From contig JASAMV010007625.1 in NCBI GenBank assembly GCA_030248065.1, forward strand, positions 62,001-126,000: a stretch of 64,000 bases of DNA. The letters run 5' to 3'. The notes under the pieces were generated by a model. It ran no database searches, was not told the DNA's origin, and was given only the letters and a program-made list of their open reading frames with translations. Of this stretch, positions 33,872-50,561 are shown piece after piece (within the stretch, counting starts at the first letter, position 1; every line of letters begins with the position of its first letter). This DNA comes from Rhynchonema sp. JSB1_4. Lineage: Eukaryota > Nematoda > Chromadorea > Monhysterida > Xyalidae. A program made the translations under genes and the position numbers.

Positions 33872-36800
33872 TCACCAGGCCTTCCAGCAACAGCCAGACA
33901 CCAACAGCAATAACAATAAGATCACGACTAGGAGCAACGTACGAGATTTCCTTAAATCCTGAAAGTTTGCTGAAATATTCCTGCTGATCACATCTCTACC
34001 ACAGCAGAGCTCACGGACTTTCTTGGGCACATTGTGCAAGCGTTGCACAGCTCCAGACGGAGTAGTTGGGTTTTTGCTGACAATCACACCATAAACCGAG
34101 AACTTTCCATCCGCATCCGTAATCCTGACGCGCACAGTCTGACCGAGCAACTGCGGCCCTGTTCCGGACACCAGTACCTGCGTGTAGCACTTTGTGTGTC
34201 CGACCAGATGTGTCCGATCCGAGGCCCATTCACTGATCAACACATCGTGTTCCGTATGCAGCAGATGTTTGTATGGGTGATAGGAACGGAACAGATCGCT
34301 CATCGCTTTCGTCCGTTGTTTGGCCTGTGGGATTGGAGATGGAATGGATAATGTTCCATGAGAATGCAGCGTGGAGCGTGCCTTCTCCGGGAGCATGGCT
34401 AACACACCCCAAGGTCATAAAACATGACTGAAGTGCAGCCGAAAACCTCAGCTCAAGAGACATTGGACAACCCTGCCCGATTAATGAAAAAAAAGGACGC
34501 ACAATCTTCGCATCTACTTTCGGCATTTTCGCAGCGGGAGTGTTGGGTCGCGAGTAATACTGGTTGATGAACACAGAGGGGAAACGGTAATCTCTGATCA
34601 ACTGCATGCTGCCGGCAAAGTCCTCATCGGTCTCGCTTGGAAACGCACAGATGAAATCGGTGGCGATGTGAATGTCCGGCACGCTGCAATGTACATACCA
34701 GATACATTATTCCACGGATGCGTAGAACATAATGAAAATCAGGTGTGTACCCAAATCTGTGAAAGCTTGCAAAATGTAAAAAAATCACTGTTAATTGTCG
34801 ATGTTTTATTCGCGTGCTCGAGGTGGAACAAATCAACCAGCCACGAATGTTGCTTTTGGGACGAGTAAAAAGTCGAACACAAACCTTTTGCGCATATAAT
34901 CCACAACATGTCTGAAATGCCCAACATTGTACTCGCGTTTCATATCAGCCAACACCGCATCGCTACCTGACTGCACTGGGATATGAAGGAAGGCATAGAC
35001 ACGTGGATGGCGCAGGATAGCGGCTATTTCCTGCAATGTGGAAAGACAGCCTGCACTCTTGTGATGGTAAAGTTTGTTACACGAACGGAATCCAATGTTT
35101 TTCTGAGGCATTGCGTACCGCCTTCATTGTGACCGAAAATGAAGGTTTCCAATCGTATCACTATAAATGGGGAAAAGTCGACTGTACATTCTCTATTATG
35201 TGAATCTGTGCACTGCAGAATGTTTGGATGGGTACCAACGGCAGATGAGACATAAAGTTGTCGTCATCTTATAGAGAGATTTGCAATAAATAAAGGTCTG
35301 CTTTAGAGAAGAAGGAGGTCCATCACAGACAAAGCAGACAGTGAAAATTGCACTGAACACAGCCAGACCAATAGGTCGTACCTCCAAATGGTCGAGAATG
35401 TACGGCGGATTTGTCATCCCCAATCGCATCATACAGCCATCTGGGATGACGTCCACCAATTGCTGCAACAAGTCAGGCAGCACCACACCGATGTCACGAC
35501 CGTATGCACCCAGATCCTCGGATGTCAGCCACAGCTCCTTCACGCCTTCTGCAGCATTGATGAAATCGTTCTTTGGATACGATGATACAAACATAAATTT
35601 ACATCTTGTTCATTTGACTTGTTTTGCGATGTAAATAGCGCATGACTAGCGGGGACACAATTGGCTTGGGACCGAAATGGCAGCATCAGTCACTGGCACA
35701 TGGAAGCATTTTTGTTTTCCGATTGAAATTATTACAAATTCCGTTTTATAAATTACAAAGCAACACACCCTCGAATGACTGCCTTGCTCGTGCGACCAAC
35801 TCTTCAATCAGATAACTGGCCAGATCACCACGTGCTTGTTTCGTCTTGCAATAGGTGCCTGCGCATGAAGATTACACTCTTGTAATTAAAACCACAAAAA
35901 AGAACAGGTTTTTCTCAGAAAATTTGCTCACAATGATTCAAACACCCGGTGTTGATGGCCAGAATTTCAACCAGGGGATTCTTGCGAATTTTCGGCAGAT
36001 CGAGACGAGCGCCAGCCAGACGTCTGCCGCCAGCGCGTTTGGATGCGGTTAGACGCACCGTGTTGCCTGAAACTCGAAGGGGAACCATTGATGCAGAAAA
36101 AAGTTGGATATTTATTGGAATGGCTTGTGCACACGGGCAAGTTTTGCGACGCCTATTCAGCCGCGGGTGCCTTATCTTTACTTACACCCCATTGCAGTAA
36201 AAATTCGTTATGGGTGAGTAAGAGCAACAGGTAACGTTGGCATACACTTGACCTTGCAATGTTTCATCGACCACATGCACAATACGATCGATCTGTTGCA
36301 CGCCGATGACTGAGTAGCCCTAGGAAGAAAAAGTTGACATCGGAAGTTGTTTGAAAAAATATTCTTGTAACAACTGTTGCAAACTTGGGAACAAAGAAAG
36401 TTTGCGTCGAGAGGTCGTAACGGCTGTCGTTAGCCCAGACTTGGGCTCATTCGCCCCCGTAACTCGACCAGAATTTATGACCGGTCCACACCCCACAAGC
36501 ACCCAAAACTGAACCAACATTGATCCAGTCCGTTTTCAACGCCGCTTGTGGCACACAGCCAGCCAAGACGACGGGTACTGAATCGACTCGTGCACTTTTC
36601 ACATGGTTTCGTAGTTGGTCTTCACTGGGCGTTTTCACAGTGCAACTGTTTAGGAGCCATAAATCGGCCACGTCCGGGGAATCTACAATGATAAATTGAA
36701 TTGATTGCAAGAGTAAGCTTGAACACCGAGGTTGGCAAGTTTAAAATCATGTGATTGGCAATATGCCACAATTACGAGCATTTGCTGTGTGACTGTAATT

Positions 36801-37392
36801 ATTGGTAAACAAAATAACCATTTGGCACCCGTACCCCGTAATCTTCAAAATTACAAGGTGGAGCTCATTCCCACTGGAGATAAGCAGGCGGATAAGGCCC
36901 AGGCGTGTACAACAGAGTTCAAAATAGGCCCAGTTTCAGCAGACCAGGGACCGCAGTTGTGCTGCCGGTAAGCCCGAAATCTTGTTTTTATGCTACTCGC
37001 TGTCCCTGGTAAATTGGTCCAGAGATGCCTGACATGGTACAGACACTGGAGATCTTCCGCTCGTCGGTTCGGCTGGTCAAAACGTGGAGAACGCGGAACC
37101 CCGTCCCGGTGGCAAATATCACCTGTGATTTCATATCCAGCCTGCGCGAGCAACCCAGCCATGTACTCGGAGTCACTACTGTTGTGCGAACAGCCCCAAG
37201 TTTTCACGAAGATCTTTTTCGTGCCTGAAAAGTTAAAAATAGTTTTTCTGTTAACAAAAGTACGTTGCAAAAAGATAACTGACCGGGAACAAAACTGGTG
37301 CCATGGAACTTTTCTGTGTGCTTATTCCGACTGGGTGATACGAGTGATGAGCACAGGGCTCCAGGTGTAATAGTGTCCTCGATATCAGGCAT
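33872..37392 (-). CDS. CDKAL1: CDKAL1-type tRNA methylthiotransferase, ten exons, 537 aa
   Basis: Radical-SAM enzyme that makes the ms2t6A modification at position 37 of ANN-decoding tRNAs, held on the ER membrane. Exons in order: 37392-37284, 37224-37123, 36682-36519, 36319-36253, 36066-35932, 35858-35769, 35548-35382, 35030-34885, 34683-34503, 34324-33872; coding length 1614 with every phase consistent. The N-terminal UPF0004 domain has [31 protein letters not shown] and VLAGCVPQA, giving three 4Fe-4S cysteines. The radical-SAM cluster motif [15 protein letters not shown] spans the exon 5-6 junction. [50 protein letters not shown] and [15 protein letters not shown] follow, then a TRAM domain (about 400-490). 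The chain ends with a leucine-rich hydrophobic segment ([16 protein letters not shown]) and a four-residue tail, the tail anchor known in CDKAL1. The start is the first ATG in frame. Confidence 0.97.
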
Positions 37393-38088
37393 TTTGCTGT
37401 ATTTCTGAATTGAGCAAAAAATTGGCAACAATTTATATGTCACAAATACTTCAGATTTATATGTCACAAATACTTCAGAATCTCCACATAGCGCACGCTG
37501 CCGCAGAGCCGTGAACAGGTTAAGTCAGATCTGACAAACTTGATTGTAAATTTGAGCAGACCAAAAATTGAGCCACGACAATTGTGCAAATAAAAAATAA
37601 CTGCTGGAACTCAACGTAAAATATCCATCAAATCGGTACCTGGTAACATGACCAGACATGGACTTAAAAACCATGCTTTACAGTGAACAATAAAAGATTA
37701 CATCACAATTCCGTTCCCAAAGTTTCATTTGCACCTCATAATCACTTTCGTTACTTACATCTAACAAAAAAACGCACGAAAAAGTCAGTCACCCAGCACA
37801 GCAGAAAAGGCAAGAGAAATAGGCACCGGTATTTGATATGATAGACTCGGGTAATAATAGAACCTACAACAACAATGAACAGAATTGGTAAATTAGCACA
37901 AACAGATAATGTGAAGTAACACCAGCTCACACAGCTCCTGCGAAAGTCCACCAAGAATGAAATCACATGACATTTACAGCGAAACAGATCTCGAGCTTCC
38001 AAAGTCCATTATTTTTCATCCGATATTAAAAGAACACACCAGAAACCTTCAACTTCAACTTTACTCAAATCCCACAAACACATGCAGG
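37393..38088. other. intergenic between CDKAL1 and SMG5 (both minus strand)
   Basis: About 700 bases between the SMG5 stop and the CDKAL1 start. ATTTATATGTCACAAATACT is repeated in tandem near 37433-37470. No exon or foldback is seen. The gap should contain the CDKAL1 promoter. Confidence 0.5.
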
Positions 38089-41000
38089 TCATTTCTTGTT
38101 CTTACGTTGGTGCTGTTCCCACTTGTTGAGAAACAAACGCACATTGTGCACAGCCACACCTGAAAATGTTACATTATCTTTTCTTTTACAATGACGTCTA
38201 ATTGGAACGAAATTAGTAAGGGCTCCACCAGATAGACCCGAAACCCGAAACACGAAATATAAATTTTTTCTATGTCCATGTTTCGGGTTTTGAAAAAAAA
38301 CCGAAACCCGAAACACGAAGCATGATAATCGAAAATGTTTCGACTGACCGTATAAATTGGGCACGTCAGCTACAAGTGGCAAGACCGAAACATTTTCGAT
38401 TATCATGCTTTGTGTTTCGGGTTTCGGTTTTTTTTTCAAAACCCGAAACCCGAAACATGGACATAGAAAAAAATTATGTTTCGGGTTTTCTGGTTTCGGG
38501 TCTATCTGGTGGAGCCCTAACAACAGTTACGCATCTGTGCCGAGCAAGCAAAATGTTTTGCTCCGTGTACATACTTTTCACGCGGAAAGCCCGAAATAGT
38601 TATAAACCGGTATCAAAAAATCTCGGTCCGTATTCAATAAGACAGAAGTAACGAACAATATCGTTCACATTCACAAGAAAAACTATGATCGGGGCCCTGC
38701 AAATTTCGGCCATCAACGAAATAATACAAACAATGGACCGTTGGGCACAAAATCATCGGTCACCGTAAAGTAGGGTTGAGCTGTGTTGTGCGATGCGGAG
38801 AATTCCAATGAACGAATGACTGTCATTTGTGAGACTCACTCCAAATACACTAATATCAAACCAATAAAATAGCTGCAAAGCGCACCTTTCAACCCGGCAT
38901 CCCTGACCGTCTGTTTCAGCTGTTTGTAGCATTTGTCATGCGGTTCATCCTGAGTCAACAAGGCCACAATCGTACTGTTCGCACTCATGGACGAACAGAG
39001 ACCACCCGATACACACAGCATGTCGTGCGTGTCGCTGAAATTGACAGAAATTAGTTACGGTAAAAGCGAAAAAGAGATTTGGTTGGATCGGATGGGTCGG
39101 TCTCCGTCGACTAAAATAATCCGATCCCGAGTTGGATAACGGCCTTGGCATTTGATTTGCAACGACAAAAGGCACACAAGGACACGCCCACGTTGCGACA
39201 CAAACTTGACAGTAATAACAAAATATATCAAGATGTGACTCGGTGACTTACTCATCCATGCCATCTGGTCGTACCACCGACCTCCATTCAGTCAGCTTGT
39301 GTTGTCGTACCCATTTTGAGCCGCGAGACGCCGCTGCCTCCAGCCATCTGAAAGTGGAAAACAGTTCATGCATTTAATTTGTGATAATTAATTACAGCTT
39401 TTGTAAATTAATTTGTTGCAGCAGTTGGCGAAGTAGGATCCATTCGCAACGAAAATTATTGGAGATGACGCAAATGGCGTCTGTCAAGTGGCTCCATTGT
39501 CAGTCGACCTGCACTATTTAGATTGGCAACTTTGACGACACTGGTAAGCTGCATTGGTTTGACGTCGAGAACGGGTGATTCTTGGTTAACTGACAATGCG
39601 CAAATGACTACAGTGCGCGCCAACCTGATCGTGTCTCTCGCATTTGCATCCGACTTTTTCTTCATGTCCAGGTACATCAAAGCATTCGGTGTCACCACGG
39701 TTACAAATTTCTGCGCATCCACTAGTCGGCGCAGAAGTGCGAGCTTGTTGAGCAGAACAGGTGCACTGGGCACCAGATACACCGGGATCCAGTCAATTCG
39801 CGATATGCGCGCTAATTGGTCCTGGCAAAGGGAATCACAACATACATACAGTCGAGACTCCTCACAGACACATGATCGGGTAACGGCATTTTCGGTCACT
39901 ATAACGGACGCTCACACACTCCAACAGAGTGATGAATGGGGGCATTAATCGTATATTGGTGAACGAAATATCCGTCAGACTATAGAGGGTGGCACTGCTA
40001 AGCAATAGGACGACCACTTTGACATTGGTACACTGTATTGCCGTTGCTGAACATGACAGGTACAGCGGTCCCAACGTGGTCGCATTACGTTCAAAGCATT
40101 TTTGAGCACAAGTTGACGACTTATAGTACGGTGGTGTCAATCAAGTTGTCAAATCACATGTATTATTTCTCACGCTCATTTGGGGCTCACGTATTTATTG
40201 CTTGATTTGACTACTTGATCTGACGACAGTACTACTGGCCCAAGTTGACTAACATTTGCTCTCAAACGCGCCATACGCTGCATAATGTCACTGTCGCGCG
40301 TTGTCGTCGCCGGTTGCTGCTGCAATAAAGAAAAATGCGAGATAAAGTGATCTTGCAAGGAAGCATGAACACAATCTCCAACAAACCTGTTGCACGGCCA
40401 TTTCGGTTTCAGCACAACGAAACTGACTCGAGCTTTGATCAAATATGAGCCCGCTGCTTCGGTCCTTGCTCAAATGCAGCGCAGCACTTAGAATATGCTT
40501 GGAGCGCTCGGTTACCTGGAGTAATAAACGGGGATACAACATCTATACAGCGGTCAGCGACATGTGAAAAAACTGATGAGAAACATAAATAAATCTTTCA
40601 AACGACTGAAGCACCTAGCAAAACACATATGAAGTTTGGTCTCAAATTGGTTTCATTACAAAAAACACTGGGAAACAACGGGATGGATTCATATCATTAT
40701 AATCACACACCAGATCCACATAATCTCCAACAAAATGACTCGTCTCGACCGATTGTCTCACAAACGACAACGCTCGCAGTTGGATGTCTTCCGGCAATGT
40801 TTTTAGTGAATTGGGAGATTCCGAATTGTCCTCCAATGTTGACAACACGTTGCACAAGTCGACCAGCGAGGAAAGTGCGCTCATTGTCTCTGGCTGAGAA
40901 CGGAGAGTAAAAATATTTCCGCTAGCACAAGACAAAGCTTGAAGCCATATTGACTTGACGCGGACGTAAAGGCAAACTAGTACACCAACACGAGCCCGAT

Positions 41001-44000
41001 TTCAGAGGTGACAGATTAGTGAAACATTCATGTGTGGCTGCTGATTTGGGAAATGTTACACGTTGAAGAATACAAAATGGGGCATGATGATTTTCTCTTT
41101 CTATTCGTTGCGAATACATGCCACCGTCGAAATCGGGCTCGTGTTGGCGTAGTTTGCCTTTACGCATGCGAATTGAGTGATATTGATACAGGTGGAGAGC
41201 TAATTCTTTTGACCAGCGTCAGATCGTGAAGATTGGGAATAAAAAGCCGCTTTCACGCTGGGCATAATCAGCGCAGAAACACTATCACAAAATGCGGCCT
41301 ACGCAAAAATTTGTCACGTACATGTCAACATCCATCAAAAGCCCTCGTTTGATCAGCTGGTCGCCAAAATTCCTAACTTTTTCTCACCACTCCACACTCC
41401 AGTAACAAACTCCAACTGTTTTACGCACGCACCGTTTTGCGAGCCACGAACACGGCTGGGGGGCTCTCCCCCCCCCGCCCCCGGGTGCGGCCACGGGGTG
41501 TATATGGCCGTCTCTCCCCCTCCCCCTTCCCGTCAGCCGGGGACGCCAGCCACGTCGCTAAATGGTGGTACACGGAAGTGACGGACAATCACCACCCCCC
41601 CACCTTTTCTGGGCTGCTGACAATATGCACTCCCCCCCACACCCCCCCCCCCCCCCCCCCCTTTCCTTTTACAAGGACGAGAATATACTATTTTCTCTTC
41701 CCTTAACATCTCCTCTTTCTCCCCCCCTCTCCCCCTCCTTCCCCCCCCCCTCCCTCTTTTTTTTTCTTTTTTTTTTTTTTTTTTCTTCCTTTCTTTTTCC
41801 CCTCCCCTTCCCCCCCCCCCCCCCTAACTTTGCTTCTATCACTAATTTACGTGCATGGTTTTATGCGTCACTGAGAGCAATAAACCAACCAACACGGCTG
41901 GGTATTGCTTGAGCGCCTGACAGCACACTTTCACAATCATCAGCATCGAGTCAAGATTGGGTGGTAATGGCAACTGGGCTGGCGTCTCGCTTCTGGAGTT
42001 GAAAACAAAATGTAAAAAAGAAAACTAAAGCTGGAGTTATACTTGTCCTCATGTGGATATTTTGTCCACAAGGACAAATCGTTGCATTCGTCATATTTTG
42101 CAACAGGTTGCAGCAATAGGTTAGAAAATTGTTGCTGTTGTTCAGCAGGGATAAGGGAACAACTGATATTCTGGTCAAAGCAGAAGTTCCAACAGTTGAC
42201 AAACTACGGCCAGAACAAAGATTTGTACACGCGGACAAAATGTCCACACGAGGATAAGTATAACTCCACCTTAAGTTGGTTGCAAGACCGGACTGCAAGC
42301 GTACCGCTTCGGAAAAACATTCGTGATATGATAAAAAAATGTGTGTCTCTGAATGGAAGCACGAACAGCACGGTTAATTCACTCACAACATGACTGCAGG
42401 TTTGTGACAACAGTGCTTGCGCAGATAACAAGGATTGGCATCATCAAATGGAGTTGGAAATTCAGCTGTCACAATTCTAACCAACACGGTAGCAAACCGT
42501 TCGACCCCCTTAACGCACCTAACATCGTCATCATCACTGTCTGCAGTCGTGCCGCCTTCTCCATGCGCAATGCCGTGCACCAAGTCCTTGCTGTCCACCG
42601 GTCCAGCACTCGGTTGCACCACTATCGGTTCACTGCTGTCACTGTCGGAGTTCTCGTCGGCCGAACTTAGAATCACCACCTCGTCTGCAAATTTAGTGAA
42701 TCATATGGAAATTTATTCTTCTCCTCTCAGAAATTTGCGGTTTGGTTTTTCAAAATCTCCACGTGACACAGAATGCCTGGTGTCGTTTGTGAATAATTTT
42801 ACGTTTCTTGTATTTTTGAAAAAAAAACGCGAAATCTGGTAGTGCTCATGCGTCATGCCACCGCGTTGCCACTCAAAGCAAGTCAGCATCAATCAAGCCA
42901 ACCTTCACCAGCGGAGCAGCTGTCCGAATTAGTGGCATCGACATCTTCTTGGTCACTTGCGCCTGCAACAAATAACCACACACAATCAGTTTACAATTAC
43001 CTCATTCTTGTCCTGAAACGGAAATACACGAATTTCTCCCATATTGTCAAACCTTCACTGGACATTGAGCGCCGTTTGCGACGCCTGAGCATTGGCGGGC
43101 CACTCTTATTCGCTTTCTGATTCTTTTTGTCACCAATGTGACTATTCGCCGACGATTGCTGTTGTTGTTTCGACGCACCATTTTTCGTTACCACTTCTTG
43201 AGCCACGCTGGCGCTCACATCCGTCAGTTTGTCACAACATTCAGCGCAGACCGATTGCAACAAATAAATGGCCAGAAGGGCAGCTTGCGAGGCGAGTGCC
43301 GACGTGGAGGTCGCGTCTAGATGAAATTATTAATGATCTTTTCAGTTTTTCTATGCAAAAATCCAAAGACGTCGCACCTTCTTGTTTCACAGCGCCAATG
43401 AGCAGCACAACAGCGACTTTGAACAGCAACAACCAATCACAATCATCTGACCGTTTCACATAGGATTGCAGTGTTGACTTTAGCTTGACGCACAACACGC
43501 CCAACCTGGAAAAGAAGCAGTTATTTGTGTCAAACGTGTTTATCGAAAGGATTACATTCGAGTGGGATTACAGGTTGCGCGAAGCAAGTAACTACAGTGC
43601 ATTATCCTGTGTTGCAAGTTGTAGGGCCCTAGGTTCAACTGGTATGCTGCGTAGTCTGTGGTGCAATGCGCCTTCTTTATGGTGACATACCTACCACTAT
43701 CATCAAGCGAGTAGCATCAACCAAGTGACTTTCGGTCCCTCTGGGTACAACTAGTACCCTGTTCCACAGCAAAGCGTCAATTTAACAGTCATTACAAGCG
43801 AGATAAAACGCGGAGTCCCTCCCGTCCATATCTACACAAAAAAGTGTACTCTGACCTAACTTGACTGAAGTTATATGTTGTCACCTCTGGCAGTCACAGA
43901 AAATTGGGAGAGGGAAATTTGATCTTTCTTTCCAGACACACACCTGTCATGTAAGCCACCTTGCGGCAGCTGCAGTAGTGACAGAACGTAGGCACAGGAT

Positions 44001-45842
44001 TGCAGAAATATGTCATGTTGAGATTGACTGGAACAAGGAGATTGCCGATTCTTTTATGTACTCTGACTGAAAACAACACAAAAAGCAACCTAGACTCGGG
44101 CTGGTCACAGTTCTTAAGGCACTTCTGCACAACTAGATTCATGTTGCTGCGCGCCATTTCGAATGGTTCAGGGGCAGAAAGACTGAAACAAAATAAATTT
44201 TGAGAAAAATGGTTCAGAATGAACAAATCATCCGAATACCTAGTTTTTTTCAGAAGAAAAACGAACCAAAGCAAATAATAGTAAATAGCATCGATACCGC
44301 AGTTGTGCTCTCCGTAGAGCGTGCCAAGTTGATTAAAAGGCATGCCTGAAGTGCAAATATAATTGTCGCGCATAATGTTTTGAAGAAATTAGGGCTGAAA
44401 ATTCACCGGTGTCGGGTTTCAGGTGAAGCGCTTGATGATAGTAACTGGCAGATTGCATGCGCTTGGCTTCGACACCAGAAGATGTGCTTTCGAACTCACA
44501 CGTGTAGCGCACTGAAAAATAGGTTCGCACATTTGACATTTTAGAACTTTCCCAGGTTTTTTCATAAAAGCTCGCAAAATTACAACGCACATAAGTCGCC
44601 CATGTAGATGAGAGTGCGATGGGTGGTGTCAAGCAAACATGACAGCAATGCACGTTCGTTCTCATCTGTCGTCGTCGTCGGCTCGAAATCGGAACGGCAA
44701 ATATGGCAAGTCTGAAGAAAAAATAAACTTATTTTCACAACATAGTAATAAAGATAAAAATCATACCGAAAAATAGCCCGATTGTGTGGTTGATTGGTGT
44801 TGGTTGAGATATTTGTCACACAATTGCATCAGAAAGCGATGATAGAAGCCAAACGAAGCTGACAGCATCATGCGCAGAAGACCACGTTGCGATTTTGAGA
44901 GTGTCTGAAAAATTGAAAGCGAAAGAGAATGGCAAGGTTTTGGGTCAATGTCGACCAAGTGCATTGGCGGCCACGACGATGAATTGATGCACAAATCGCC
45001 TCTGAGCTCTGGTCGAAACGATTCGCAAAAGCACGTTTCTGACAGTTCACATTGAATTGGAAGAACTGAGAACCATGTTGGAGAAAATCGCACCATTTGA
45101 AAACTTCTCAGCACTTGTACCGGTTCGTAATGGCACTTTTTCCACAACTGTTCTTCGCTTCGTCTGCCGTACTCAACGGGATTAATGAAAAATAGCCGCT
45201 CGCACGCATCGCACAACCTGAGAAACAATAAATTAAGTTCACATGACAAATGTAGAACTATTATTTGTATTCTTTCTGGCATAAAGCTGAAAATGGCAAT
45301 CCAATGATGCTCGCATACATGTGTATCGGATGTACACCCGCGCTCTGGTTTCAGAAACTTTCGTATCATTCTTCCTAAAGAACACAGAAGAAAAAACGTA
45401 CTTTTCACGCAAAAGAAACGTTTCGGTGCCAAGAACATATTCCACCTTGTCGGTGCCTTTGGCTGCGCCTTGTTCCAAACGTCCCTTACAATCGAGACAC
45501 GTCCTGAAAAACGAGAGCAAGCACAGCTTACTGCATCCTGGGGGACAAAAAGGTCGAAAATATCCCAGGCATAATTTTTGTTCTTTTTTAAAAGTGCAGA
45601 TTTAAAAAAAACAAGCACTTCCTGAAAAAGATTTTTTGTTCTGTTGCAACGCTGTACCTACCAGCTTAGTCAGTCAGCTTCAGCTTCAATCCACAACCAC
45701 AATGTTTGAATAAATGAACCAACTTGTACAGCTTGCGCACGATCGCATCGCGTTCGACGTCTCCTGTGGCACGCAATGACGTGTTCTGCTTCTCAACAAC
45801 TTTCGCGGCCATGCTATTGTGCAGATTACGGATTGATCCCAT
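38089..45842 (-). CDS. SMG5: SMG5 nonsense-mediated decay factor, about 21 exons, one exon split by a SINE
   Basis: EST1-family factor that with SMG7 binds phosphorylated UPF1 in mRNA surveillance. First exon about 45842-45700 (VRKLYKLVHLFKH), then 45503-45402, 45217-45094, 44904-44767, 44711-44591, 44511-44407, 44345-44267, 44182-44090, one unresolved, 43505-43378, 43316-43053, 42962-42903, 42684-42387, 41992-41433 (interrupted), 40893-40711, 40515-40387, 40319-40191, 39821-39625, 39347-39252, 39034-38886, 38159-38089. The 14-3-3-like/TPR part is clear: LREKLCDACERLFFINPVEYG, EEQLWKKCHYE, LIYMGDL, SYYHQALHLKPDTGMPFNQLGTLYG. A basic, Ser/Asp-rich linker follows. The C-terminal PIN domain starts YLVPSAPVLLNKLALLRRL. 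Phases agree from 45503 to 44090 and from 43505 to the stop; the first junction and the 43.5-44.1 kb exon are unsolved. Intron 20 and the 42387-41992 intron hold foldback elements. Confidence 0.93.
38219..38518. mobile_element. 300-bp foldback with CCCGAAACCCGAAAC arms, in the last SMG5 intron
   Basis: From AGGGCTCCACCAGATAGACC to GGTCTATCTGGTGGAGCCCT the two halves are reverse complements over roughly 120 bases each, around a short centre (about 38344-38385). Arms are built from repeated CCCGAAAC / GTTTCGGG. Repeat-filled arms with no coding capacity match the plan of the transposons in the 46-58 kb cluster. The flanks TA/AA do not give a convincing duplication. Confidence 0.9.
41449..41460. 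repeat. target-site duplication, left copy (SINE in SMG5 exon)
   Basis: AACACGGCTGGG, repeated exactly at 41891-41902, flanks the SINE. One copy belongs to the original SMG5 exon, encoding part of YPAVF on the minus strand. Confidence 0.92.
41461..41890 (+). mobile_element. SINE-like retroposon, copy 1, inside an SMG5 coding exon
   Basis: 430 bases flanked by an exact 12-bp duplication. It starts GGGCTCT and ends GAG-CAATAAACCAACC, exactly as copy 2 at 53254-53708 does. Shared interior: GACGCCAGCCACGTCGCTAA, GGTGGTACACGGAAGTGACG and CTATCACTAATTTACGTGCA. Its middle (about 41630-41825) is almost only C and T, while copy 2 has ordinary sequence there. It lies antisense to SMG5. Removing it with one duplication copy restores a 118-base exon in frame. 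Confidence 0.92.
41891..41902. repeat. target-site duplication, right copy (SINE in SMG5 exon)
   Basis: Second exact copy of AACACGGCTGGG, immediately after the SINE end. Confidence 0.92.
42029..42273. mobile_element. MITE-like element, about 245 bp, in an SMG5 intron
   Basis: AAGCTGGAGTTATACTTGTC..CATGTGGATATTTTGTCC at the left is mirrored by GGACAAAATGTCCACACGAG, GATAAGTATAACTCCACCTT at the right. That gives about 45 bases of imperfect inverted repeat, then a weaker continuation. It is non-coding and lies between SMG5 exons 42387 and 41992. Confidence 0.82.
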
Positions 45843-45949: not shown

Positions 45950-47162
45950 AGCCCTCCCTGAATCTCACCCAGTGCAGGCGGGACGGCAACCTAGTGTACC
46001 ACCAAAAATGCGGGGCGGCCAGGGTAGCACGGGGGCCCGAGCAGTGTAGTTCCTGGTCCGGCGGGGAAATTAGTGTACCTACCTCCCTACTTTTTCGGAG
46101 GGGAAATTAGTGTACCTCCCCGGGGGGAAGGGGGGAAGCATAGTAGTGGCTGGGGGGGGGTTGGGGGGTTACCCCCCCCTCTCAGTACTTACCTACCACA
46201 AAACCCGAGGGGGGGTTGGGGGGGTTGAGTACTTACCTCTCACAACTCCAAATCATACCTCTCACAAGCAATTTTATACCTTTTTAAGGCAAAAATCGGT
46301 GTTTTTCGACCTTATTTTCCCAAAAATCGCGGCGCAAACCCACCCATAATACCTATTTTTAGGCGATTTTCGGCGAAAATTTGGAAAAAGTACTATTTTT
46401 ACCTCATTTTTTGGCCAAAATTGTATCACAAAAACGGTGTTTTTTCGCGTTTTTGGGTGACCAAAATCATACCTCTCACGCTTCCGGTCCCAACCCCGCA
46501 TCATACTTACCTCCCACACATGGGCCTGCCACTACACTGGGGGGAAGACCCAAAGTCAGGAAAAAGTCACTTTTTGAGGTAGAAAATTTGACCTATTTTT
46601 ACCCCTTTTTGGAAAAAATTCTTCATTAAAAGGATATTTTGGCGACTTTTGAGAACACTGACCTGGCTGAAAATCACACATTTTAGGCCTAAAATGCAAA
46701 TTTTAGGCCTAAAAATGGCCATTTTAGGCAAAAATTGGGGGAAATTAGTGTACCCAGAGGGGAAATTAGTGTACTAGCAGTGTTGGAGGTGGGGGGTTTG
46801 GGGGGTAGCCCCCCCAGTACAGTAGGTATCCCCCCTCGCCTGGTACAGTAGGTATCCCCCCGATGTTTGGCATGGTACAATAGAACCCCCCGATTTTCAC
46901 CCCGGTACAGTAGGTGTCCCCCCCGATTTTGCCTCAAAAGTGCCAATTTTTGACCAAAATAGCCAAAATTAGTGTAAAATCAGTGGTTTTTACCTCAAAT
47001 TACCCCAAATACTACGTTTTCACACGATTCCACACATAATAAACACATTAAAAATTTTCACCCCAAAACCTAACCCCCCAACCCCCCCTAGGTACATAAC
47101 CCCCCCCCAGGCCATCGGCTCTGGTACAGTAGAGGTATCCCCCCTCTCCGAGCGCGGTACAG
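45950..47162. repeat. left part of the transposon nest: GGTACACTAATTTCCCC and GGTACAGTAGG repeats
   Basis: G-rich and C-rich runs alternate with GAAATTAGTGTACC, GGTATCCCCC and TACAGTAGGTAT units and the shared core (TTTTTAGGCCTAAAATGG-type). GCAGTGTAGTTCCTGG near 46033 is the left end of the CAGTGTAG family. Several damaged elements overlap and I could not assign each border. No gene is present; the open frames are repeats read in phase. Confidence 0.75.
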
Positions 47163-48408
47163 TACCGTATTGTCGGAAATAGAACCCCCCATTAATTGAC
47201 CCCCCCATTAATTGAACCCTCCCTAAATGGCTCGAAATCAAAAATACAACCCCCCCATTAATTGACCCCCCCATTAATAGAACCCCACCCCCAACCTTCA
47301 CCGTACCACAGATTAGTGGTACGGTAAGGCTGTGTTGTTGTGTCAAATGTTGTTTAAGCTTGCGTACACAACAGAATACAGCTTTTTAAGCATAATTGCC
47401 GCTATTAAAGTTAGAAAATACCGAAAACAAGCCATTTTTATGGGCATCAGTAACAACGATTTTTTTCGTCGGGGGGCCAAATGAAAAATATAACCCCCCA
47501 ATACCGTAAAACCTAAAATACACGGGGGGGCTGTATTTTTTCACTGACCCCTTTTAGGGGGGCTGTATTTTTGGGGGGGCTCTATTTTTGGGGGCAGTGT
47601 AGTTCCTGGGGGGGGAGGGGGGGGTCCCCCCCTAAGGTACACTAACCGCCGCGACCAAGGTACACTAGTACACTAACCGCCGCGCCAGGTACACTAACCG
47701 CCTCAATTTTTGCCCAAAATAGGTATTTTTAGGCCTAAAATGGGCATTTTTAGGCCTAAAATGGGTGATTTTTAGGTCAATGATGTCAAAAGTCGCCAAA
47801 ATACCCTTTTTATGGAGAATTTTTTCCAAAAAGGGGTAAAAATCGGTCAAATTTTCTACCTCAAAAAGTGACTTCTTCCTGGATTTGGGTCTTCCCCCCC
47901 CCAGGGAGGTATACTAACCGCCGCACGGAAAAAAGGGGTAGGTACACTAACCGCCGCGCCGGACCAGGAACTACACTGTTTGGGGGGGGCTGTATTTTTT
48001 CGCTGCCCAAAATCTCAAAAAATGTTCCAAAAAATACCCCTAAAATGGAGTTCTGTCAGGGTGTTACTGGTCATTATTGAGTGTTTTTAGGTGCAGATCT
48101 TCCATAAAAGGCTTTACGTCATCATATACTCAACCACAAACGTTGTACACAAGGTGTCTTATGCAAGAACTTGACTTTACGACCCCCAAAGCGGGGAATT
48201 CCAAGTTGGGGGGGGGCTGTATTTTTGGGGGGCTCTATTTTTTCACTGACCCCTTTTAGGGGGGGGGCTGTATTTTTGGGGGGGCTCTATTTTTGGGGGG
48301 GCTCTATTTTAGGGAATACGGTAATTGACCCCCCCATAAATTGAACCCCCCCAAAATGACCCCAGTGAAAAAATAGACCCCCCGGGTTCTATTTCCGACA
48401 ATACGGTA
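47163..48408. mobile_element. TACCGTATT-family inverted-repeat element, 1.25 kb, with nested insertion
   Basis: It starts TACCGTATTGTCGGAAATAG and ends CTATTTCCGACAATACGGTA, an exact inverted repeat that continues into C/G runs. Up to about 47510 it is nearly identical to 52152-52490, including the unique stretch CTGTGTTGTTGTGTCAAATG..CGTACACAACAGAATACAGC. A CAGTGTAG-family element (47595-47978) is inserted in it. G-rich GGGGGGCTCTATTTTT units fill its right half. It has no coding capacity. Confidence 0.85.
47595..47978. mobile_element. hAT-like MITE, CAGTGTAG family, GGTACACTAACCGCC arms
   Basis: 384 bases from CAGTGTAGTTCCTGG to CCAGGAACTACACTG, flanked by an exact 8-bp duplication TTTGGGGG (47587-47594 and 47979-47986). 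CAGTG ends and 8-bp duplications are hallmarks of the hAT superfamily. Arms repeat GGTACACTAACCGCCGCG; the core has TTTTTAGGCCTAAAATGGGC and a CGCCAAAATACCCTTTTTAT stretch. Nearly identical to 57546-57936. Confidence 0.95.
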
Positions 48409-48410
48409 GG

Positions 48411-48576
48411 TACCGTAAAAACCTAAATACAAGGGGGGGCTCTATTAATTCACTGACCCAATTTTCAAAAAATTATTTTCGTTTCTCAGCGAGAGCGTTC
48501 CAAATCCGGTGTTATTTTCGATCGATATTCCGAGGGGGCTCTATTCCGGGGGGGGCTCTATTTAGATTTTTACGGT
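48411..48576. mobile_element. short TACCGTAAAA-family element
   Basis: It begins TACCGTAAAAACCTAAATAC and ends TATTTAGATTTTTACGGTA, an inverted repeat. Arms hold GGGGGGCTCTATT units. Its centre TTTCTCAGCGAGAGCGTTCC is unique in the window. Confidence 0.75.
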
Positions 48577-48607
48577 ATCCCCCCTCCAGAGTACGTCCAA
48601 CACTGTG

Positions 48608-49046
48608 TACCGTAAAAACCTAAATAGAAGGGGGGGGCTCTATTAACTCACTGACCCCATTTTGGGGGGGCTCTATTACGGGGGGGGGCTCTATTCCGGG
48701 GGGGCCTCTATTAATTCACTGACCCGAACCTGAAAAATTGTTCCCAGAAATACCCCCAAAAACCCCTAAAAAGAGGTTTGAAAGGATGTTTTTTCGCTTG
48801 TAATCGCATTTATTCGTGTCTATTCGTCAATAGGAGGCGTATTATGTGCTCTGAACGAACAACAAACGTGCATAAATGTACCTGTACACCACTATCAAGC
48901 CTTAATACACTACAGTATAGGGGATGTTACTTAGGGGGGGCTCTATTCCGGGGGGGCCTCTATTAATTCACTGACCCCTTGTTGGGGGCTGTATTACGGG
49001 GGGGGGGGCTCTATTCCGGGGGGGGCTGTATTTAGGTTTTTACGGT
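48608..49046. mobile_element. TACCGTAAAA-family element, 439 bp
   Basis: Inverted ends TACCGTAAAAACCTAAATAG and CTGTATTTAGGTTTTTACGGTA (last base 49046), with arms of GGGGGGCTCTATTCCGG. The centre (48779-48930, with CGCATTTATTCGTGTCTATT and GAACGAACAACAAACGTGC) recurs inverted at 55205-55385, where it is the core of another copy. Confidence 0.85.
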
Positions 49047-49885
49047 ACTAGTGTAAAGTGTACCTTTTGGTCAGGGAAATTAGTGGGCCCGAGCCGAGGG
49101 CCCGAGGCTTCTATCTGAAGTGACTTTTTACCGAGCTTTGGACACCTCGGGCCGGGCCGGTGATTTGGGTGCTCGGGCCGCGCCGGCCCGGCCAAACCCG
49201 GCTCGATTGCGACCTCTGGTACTTTTTGACGTTTTCGACGAAAATTGGCCTAAAATGACCGTTTTTGTGTGTTTGCGCACAGAGCACGCGACGCGAGACG
49301 AGATACGAGAAATTTTTGAAGGCTTCATTTTTTCTTCGATACTGGAAAAAGTTCATTTCGAGGACCTTTTTTTTGAAAAAAAAGACAAAAAACTTGTTGT
49401 GAAAAATCAATTTAAAAAACAAAATTTGTTTCTTGAAAAATAGGAAAAAACGATTTTTTTCTCTTTTTGCAACGCTGTGCGAGCATTGCATGTTTTTGAG
49501 TGCGGTGTCCAAGTCCTTTGTTCCACTCCACCTTGGTGTCAATAATAATTTTTGGAAAATAGCTGACAATGCACTTGGTGACTCGCAATCAGTGAAGATA
49601 TTTTAATAGCTTTTCACGACTCCTTGCATGGCTTCATGTTCTGTATATTCACAGTGATGCATACAACAGTTCATGAACATTTCGACCAGAGTGTAAAGGC
49701 AGTCTAGGGGAGGTTGTAAGTCAGCACCCAAATACCGTATCCGTGATATGCAAGGATTGCTGCGAGGCCAATGCCAAAAAGGGGCTGACTTTGCGCAAGC
49801 CGGTCATTCTTAAATTTTGCTGCAACACGACAACTTTTCCCGGCTTCCGAATCTTCAAACACAAGGACAATCGACGTGGATCATC
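49047..49885. other. region between repeats and the protamine-like gene
   Basis: It starts with a short GC-rich repeat (GGGCCCGAGCCGAGGGCCCG at about 49084, and CTCGGGCCGGGCC). It then becomes AT-rich with no recognisable exon until the protamine-like start. The promoter of that gene should lie here; no motif is certain. Confidence 0.4.
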
Positions 49886-50561
49886 ATGGCCACTCAAGCT
49901 CCAGCGAACAACAACGTCGAAGATGAAACCGAGCAGCAAGGTTGTAATTTATTTATATTTTCCACATTCTTAATCTAGCCACCGCAATCCAGCAATGATT
50001 GCCCATTTGCAGTGTGCGAGTGCGAGCGTCTCGTTGCCGGTGGTCGACGATCGCGTCGCGGCTCGGTGCGTCGCAGTCGACGTGGTCGTCGTCGTCGATC
50101 GAAGGCAGTTGACGTCAGTCAGGACGATGACTCGGTCGCGGTGCCGAAACGACGCCGTCGCCGTCGCAAGTGTCAGTTGGCATCTCAGCTCAACGACTCT
50201 TTTCAATTGAATGTTCCCATTTATTGTTCATTTGCAGCCAGCATGCGCACGGCACGATCCGTGTCGAAACGTCGTGGCAGCCGTCGTGGCGGCAAGAGCA
50301 CGCGTCGCGCTCGCGGCAAGGGTGAGTGGAAATTCAGAAATCCAAGAGCGCCAAAATGAGGCACTTCGATTGAAATTTAAACTTTCAGGCCGTCGATCGC
50401 GTCGCATGTCGGTGAAAAGCAGTCGTCGCGGTTCGTCGCGTCGTCGCCGCAGTCGTCGCGGTGTCAAATCGATGTCGACCCGTCGTCGTTCGGTGAAGAA
50501 GACCGGCCGAAGCACCCGTCGCCGCCGTCGCTCGACTCGACGCAAGCAGGCCATCGTCTAG
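49886..50561 (+). CDS. protamine-like arginine-rich sperm basic protein, four exons, 156 aa
   Basis: Exons 49886-49940, 50013-50171, 50238-50321 and 50389-50561 with all phases consistent; introns are only 66-72 bases. The start (MATQAPANNNVEDETEQQ) is mildly acidic. From about residue 28 the chain is dominated by Arg in RRS/RRGS blocks (GGRRSRRGSVRRSRRGRRRR, KRRGSRRGGKSTRRARGKG, SSRRGSSRRRRSRRG, STRRRRRSTRRKQ), with one acidic insert (SQDDDS). Arg clusters separated by Ser/Thr are typical of protamine-like proteins that pack sperm DNA and are controlled by phosphorylation. No globular histone-H1 domain is visible. An SR-type RNA-binding linker is the alternative; lack of an RRM and the small size favour a nuclear basic protein. 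Intron 2 (GTCAGT..TTTGCAG) is 66 bases and stop-free in frame, so its retention would add 22 residues. Confidence 0.8.

Follow-up and report, generated by a model that had tools for sequence, protein, structure and literature searches.

Several transposable elements that sit inside exons are said to be partly removed by splicing, i.e. the 412 element in the vermilion gene of Drosophila and the Tc1 element in the unc-54 gene of C. elegans, and the SINE intron of the rice CatA gene is reportedly an exonic insertion removed in the same manner. All three cases are reportedly RNA-based. A related class is formed by the introners studied by Gozashti et al. 2022 (PMC9860276), which are described there as mostly consistent with DNA transposition and as forming introns in many genes.

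The locus described here lies in a window of 64,000 nucleotides, i.e. the whole stretch of DNA that was analysed, from the nematode Rhynchonema sp. JSB1_4 (contig JASAMV010007625.1, positions 62,001 to 126,000). The reading that we favour, with a probability of about 0.6, is a recent, probably segregating, loss-of-function insertion of a SINE-like element in exon 14 of SMG5. In this scheme a recently active SINE-like retroposon would have inserted antisense into the exon, duplicating 12 target bases, and read-through of the element would truncate most transcripts of the filled allele.

The SMG5 gene and the insertion in exon 14

The features of the locus are the following.

38089 to 45842, minus strand: SMG5 gene, 21 ancestral exons, with the Pfam domains EST1 and EST1_DNA_bind
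41433 to 41992, minus strand: SMG5 ancestral exon 14, now 560 bases, 118 bases after removal of the element and one duplicate
41449 to 41460, no strand: target-site duplication copy 1, AACACGGCTGGG, perfect, 12 bases
41461 to 41890, plus strand: SINE-like retroposon, antisense to SMG5, 430 bases, interior almost certainly miscalled
41891 to 41902, no strand: target-site duplication copy 2, AACACGGCTGGG, perfect, 12 bases

We note that "exon 14" denotes the single ancestral exon that is split by the element (the gene model consists of 22 pieces), and that "exon 15" stands for the ancestral exon following it (piece 16). In a gene model assembled by hand, with GT as donors and AG as acceptors, removal of the insert and one duplicate gives an open frame of 863 residues, and the gene is otherwise intact. 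The product matches EST1 and EST1_DNA_bind in Pfam (5e-12 and 5.1e-24). Both domains are carried by all six relatives found, one of which is named SMG5 (Aplysia) and two nonsense-mediated mRNA decay factor. The C-terminal PIN domain of SMG5 was not found by Pfam; the C-terminal region nevertheless aligns with the relatives. A search of the assembly with the SMG5 protein, in which all 16 candidates were scored, gave 20 matches, every one of them on this contig, and a pseudogene or a second SMG5 copy was ruled out because the assembly matches at this locus only. The next gene, on the same strand, is CDKAL1-like; no close relative is named among the 120 best of 2731 matches to it.

The earlier note had proposed that a SINE splits an old, conserved SMG5 exon. 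This is borne out, with the element better called SINE-like. Both junctions of the insert show a family-typical tail and a full 5' end, and the duplication is perfect. The 118-base exon with matching phases on both sides, which the note obtained by taking out the element and one duplicate, was likewise recovered, and the resemblance of its product to SMG5 of other animals holds, since its segment ...VKVCCQALKQYPAVFVARKT can be aligned to proteins of the SMG5 type from both molluscs and vertebrates.

The sequences on either side of the insertion were searched against the assembly with scoring of every candidate, which revealed neither an unfilled site nor a second haplotype at this position. 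The flanks match this contig only, with the exception of one weak 66-base match at 79%.

Other features of the window and the assembly were also recorded. SMG5 intron 13 harbours a MITE-like element of about 250 bases with inverted repeats (about 42023 to 42277), of which 39 other copies at 81-88% identity are present among the 40 scored of 121 candidates. A long field of repeats rich in runs of G and C, e.g. atagagcccccc, extends from about 46000 to 49100, and at about 49900 to 50560 there are, by eye, small and very arginine-rich coding-like stretches, perhaps of a sperm nuclear basic protein. Another contig of the assembly (L082) is mitochondrial, with COX1 identified by Pfam and COX3 and ND3 as neighbours by eye, and reads in the invertebrate code 5. 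Of its 7859 protein matches the 120 best were inspected: the highest, at 80%, carries no name, and those with a name stand at about 66-70% and are mostly from arthropods, the priapulid Halicryptus occurring twice.

The SINE-like family and the interior of the window copy

The family consensus is 457 bases long and ends in the tail CAATAAACCAACC or variants of it. A 27-base stretch from the 3' end of the element occurs 351 times in the assembly without a mismatch. Loci L025-L061 are the best matches to the window copy, and L062-L081 are 20 loci picked from the first 100 listed of the 351. Full copies number 33 and share 94.5-99.8% identity with the consensus built from them; near-duplicate pairs among them are L055/L056 and the two copies in L047. 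The 20 copies picked through their 3' ends all show 92-100% identity to one real copy, and in 11 of them the match begins beyond base 6. Among the 59 other copies whose 3' end was found in loci L025-L081, the 5' end is complete in 47 and an exact target-site duplication of at least 7 bases is present in 41, 38 of these being 10-14 bases long. The hexamer ACCAAC, i.e. GTTGGT in the antisense direction, is found at the 3' end of 43 of the 59.

The duplications, the fixed 3' end, the short tail and the 5' truncation are the anatomy of a LINE-mobilised retroposon. The 12-base duplication at SMG5 falls within the range of about 7-20 bases by which such SINE-like retroposons were recognised. A SINE in the strict sense has a tRNA-, 5S- or 7SL-derived head with a pol III promoter; ARAGORN and Rfam, run on one copy, found no tRNA and no Rfam family, so that we prefer the term "SINE-like". 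The element does contain GTTCGATAC, which resembles a B box. Precise insertion is confirmed by three other copies, L032, L047 and L068, whose flanks, once joined, are 100% identical to copies of a repeat that lack the element; such copies were found at 25 places for L032 and at one place for each of the other two. For unfilled allelic sites of other copies, the 40 scored of 874 and the 40 scored of 1726 candidates contained only unfilled repeat copies.

Several of these loci deserve a separate remark. The contigs of L055 and L056 each carry the element and may be retained haplotypes or a duplication, and those of L028 and L060 show 100% identity along 3.4 kb. L047 is a 4.7-kb head-to-head inverted duplication at 96% identity with one element per arm. 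The longer copies (L028, L054, L058, L060 and L061) were considered as a coding parent and rejected, as they appear to be members of this family that carry other sequence in their interior.

The copy within SMG5 is conspicuous for its interior. It equals the consensus perfectly at bases 83-138 and 392-457 (blocks of 56 and 66 bases), and only its ends and one internal block are trustworthy. There are no changes in these 122 clean bases, which places its divergence below 2.4% (95% bound); an old, decayed element is ruled out by the perfect blocks. In the rest of the copy the register is kept, 27 bases are missing and 108 are substituted. As many as 103 of the 108 substitutions are to C (78) or T (25), as against 78 of 167 in the pooled substitutions of the 33 aligned relatives and 40-60% in each of the seven relatives that have at least six changes. 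Consensus bases are retained to 96% for C, 69% for T, 61% for A and 53% for G. Tracts of 100 bases that are at least 93% purine or pyrimidine occur, within the window, in this insert only, and none was found in the 194,095 bases of loci L025-L081.

The interior of the window copy is thus almost certainly miscalled, i.e. its C/T-richness would be an artefact of base calling or low-coverage assembly and not biology. True sequence evolution towards C and T was rejected: the register is kept, the changes are almost only to C or T, and the pattern is absent from the 33 aligned and the 20 sampled relatives. Read on the minus strand, the wrong bases of the insert are almost all G or A. Two-colour Illumina instruments are described as calling G where signal is absent (PMC13218037). 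Such calling may be the cause here, although by itself it leaves the changes to A unexplained. With a miscalled interior the insert is unfit for splice prediction outside its clean parts. The case is also a warning that miscalled bases may account for a low-complexity insert found in an assembly.

Splice sites and predicted products

Candidate splice sites were scored with simple weight matrices derived from the 29 introns of SMG5 and CDKAL1 only; branch points and enhancers lie outside the matrices. The natural sites range from -5.0 to 13.8 for acceptors and from -1.5 to 10.2 for donors. The sites that matter are the following.

41884 to 41889, minus strand: donor-like GTTGGT supplied by the element, exon end at 41890, 7.3 bits, at least as high as 14 of 29 natural donors
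41880 to 41885, minus strand: donor GTTTAT proposed in the earlier note, exon end at 41886, 3.8 bits, at least as high as 6 of 29 natural donors
41456 to 41457, minus strand: acceptor AG proposed in the earlier note, exon start at 41455, weak
40894 to 40895, minus strand: AG acceptor that ancestral exon 15 already has, exon start at 40893, 6.8 bits, seventh lowest of 29

With the window sequence as it stands, the score of the proposed acceptor is -5.3. Each of the 29 natural acceptors scores higher, and among all same-strand AGs in the window the proposed site is at the 43rd percentile. Replacing the insert by an intact family copy brings the score to -1.9, at least as high as one of 29. The note had built this acceptor from a C-tract plus the duplicated target. 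One part of that stands, in that the six C just before the AG lie at the junction and are compatible with the family (element end GGG and target GGG, read antisense), whereas the C-rich interior is unfaithful to the family consensus and drops out. The element-supplied donor, TTG/GTTGGT, is at the 98th percentile of all same-strand GTs in the window. The same hexamer serves as a natural donor in SMG5 intron 1 and in the third CDKAL1 intron modelled, and GTTGGC is used in two more SMG5 introns. Counted by eye over the 29 minus-strand introns (34325-45723), donor position +3 is A in 4, G in 13, T in 10 and C in 2; a rare A at this position is unusual for an animal. The old exon-14 donor scores 9.5 (rank 24 of 29) and is still the stronger one, so the outcome of splicing cannot be predicted from the sequence.

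The predicted products differ sharply between the routes. Read-through of the element yields 577 residues instead of 863, the last 16 being coded by the element and the stop codon being placed in its clean 66-base end; the exon read through would be 560 bases long as against 264 for the largest other exon. Joining 41886 to 41455 gives a 130-base exon (12 bases more) and 867 residues in frame, and joining 41890 to 40893 gives a 103-base exon, a 996-base intron and an open product of 858 residues. The other junctions tried are frameshifted or stopped early (41890/41455, 573 residues; 41886/40893, 649; 41894/40893, 564), as is skipping of exon 14 (531 residues).

Against a broken allele it can be said that a usable donor within the element could rescue the gene, i.e. 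TTG/GTTGGT (41890) could be spliced to the existing exon 15 acceptor (40893). A single intron would then take in what remains of the element, the following 28 bases of the exon and the old intron. The predicted protein stays in frame, loses VARKT and exchanges F for L, i.e. it is five residues shorter. This route is favoured by the 7.3-bit donor and its natural use in both genes, by the normal size of the resulting exon and by the presence of ACCAAC in most family copies, and it is weakened by the stronger old donor, by the modest exon 15 acceptor, by the one-in-three chance of an in-frame outcome and by the position of the lost residues in a segment that aligns with the CAQSS stretch common to the relatives. 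On balance we regard it as rather unlikely, and as more plausible than the intron proposed in the earlier note, which had left this route out of consideration. A wider version is speculative and, to our mind, unlikely: the antisense GTTGGT of a young, abundant family would fit the unusual donor preference of the host, exonic antisense insertions would be partly tolerated, and SMG5 would be such a case at birth. The mechanism of this wider version, equally unlikely, would be that the exon ends at the element, the downstream acceptor is kept and the next intron swallows the element. If the donor route works, it would be a simple form of exon shrinkage in which the next intron absorbs an element without a new acceptor.

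The earlier note offered two readings, an intron at birth or a broken allele. For the former its splice arithmetic was right: joining 41886 to 41455 adds 12 bases, a step for which introners of Aureococcus sp. adding 12 bases are on record (PMC9860276), and four residues are gained in an open frame. With the sites named, the proposal fares badly, as the donor is ordinary to weak, the acceptor lies below or barely within the natural range, a pyrimidine tract is absent beyond the six C, the better donor four bases upstream frameshifts with this acceptor, and no relative of the family is shown in a host coding exon. We consider a newborn intron highly improbable. An assembly chimera, in which the element belongs elsewhere in the animal's genome, would fit the corrupted interior, intact in the 33 aligned and 20 sampled relatives, so that read support here is perhaps poor; it is nevertheless quite improbable, because the perfect local duplication, the family-typical tail and the full 5' end at the junctions would be hard to produce by misassembly.

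The broken allele remains a live alternative and is the reading preferred here. If most transcripts are truncated, as read-through would imply, the allele would be a loss-of-function variant. Drosophila Smg5 is termed an essential NMD gene (PMC4848089), and because of this the insertion is probably segregating or heterozygous and was carried into the assembly by chance; essentiality in the present animal is presumed by analogy with Drosophila. The assembly may keep some second haplotypes, as suggested by one contig pair (L055/L056) that is 99.3% identical over 3.4 kb. A segregating insertion would represent a natural loss-of-function allele of a gene for RNA surveillance, and the pathway in which this gene acts would then have the gene's truncated message among its targets.

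Comparison with introners and other exonic elements

Whether the family behaves like an introner was examined on the 41 copies with a clear duplication, by joining their flanks and looking for open frames across the junction, which is a weak test in an unannotated assembly. There were 150 frames of at least 30 residues in 39 copies, and for eight high-scoring ones (from seven copies) Pfam gave no match above the curated cut-off. By eye, L043, L066 and L071 lie beside likely coding sequence, yet in introns close to splice sites. In L066 the target-site duplication includes an apparent intron acceptor (TTCTTTTGCAG), which is hence present in both duplicates. Since not one of the 41 was shown to split a coding exon of the host, the family does not resemble an introner, within the limits of this weak test.

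The 412, Tc1 and CatA cases share with the SMG5 insertion an element inside an exon and a possible partial rescue through sites in or near it; they reportedly rest on RNA evidence, whereas rescue in the SMG5 case is a prediction from sequence. The likeness to the introners as described in PMC9860276 lies in a mobile element flanked by a target-site duplication in a coding exon, for which a frame-keeping removal can be written. Unlike them, the SMG5 element is of a retroposon type, marked by a 3' tail and by 5' truncation; the acceptor it offers is poor, and none of the other copies examined was shown to be exonic. Finally, the effects of Alu and other SINEs on transcriptomes, as treated in PMC2394776, also involve a SINE with a sequence near the splice-site consensus; there the concern is exonization, while the exonic copy in SMG5 could instead shorten an exon by offering a donor.
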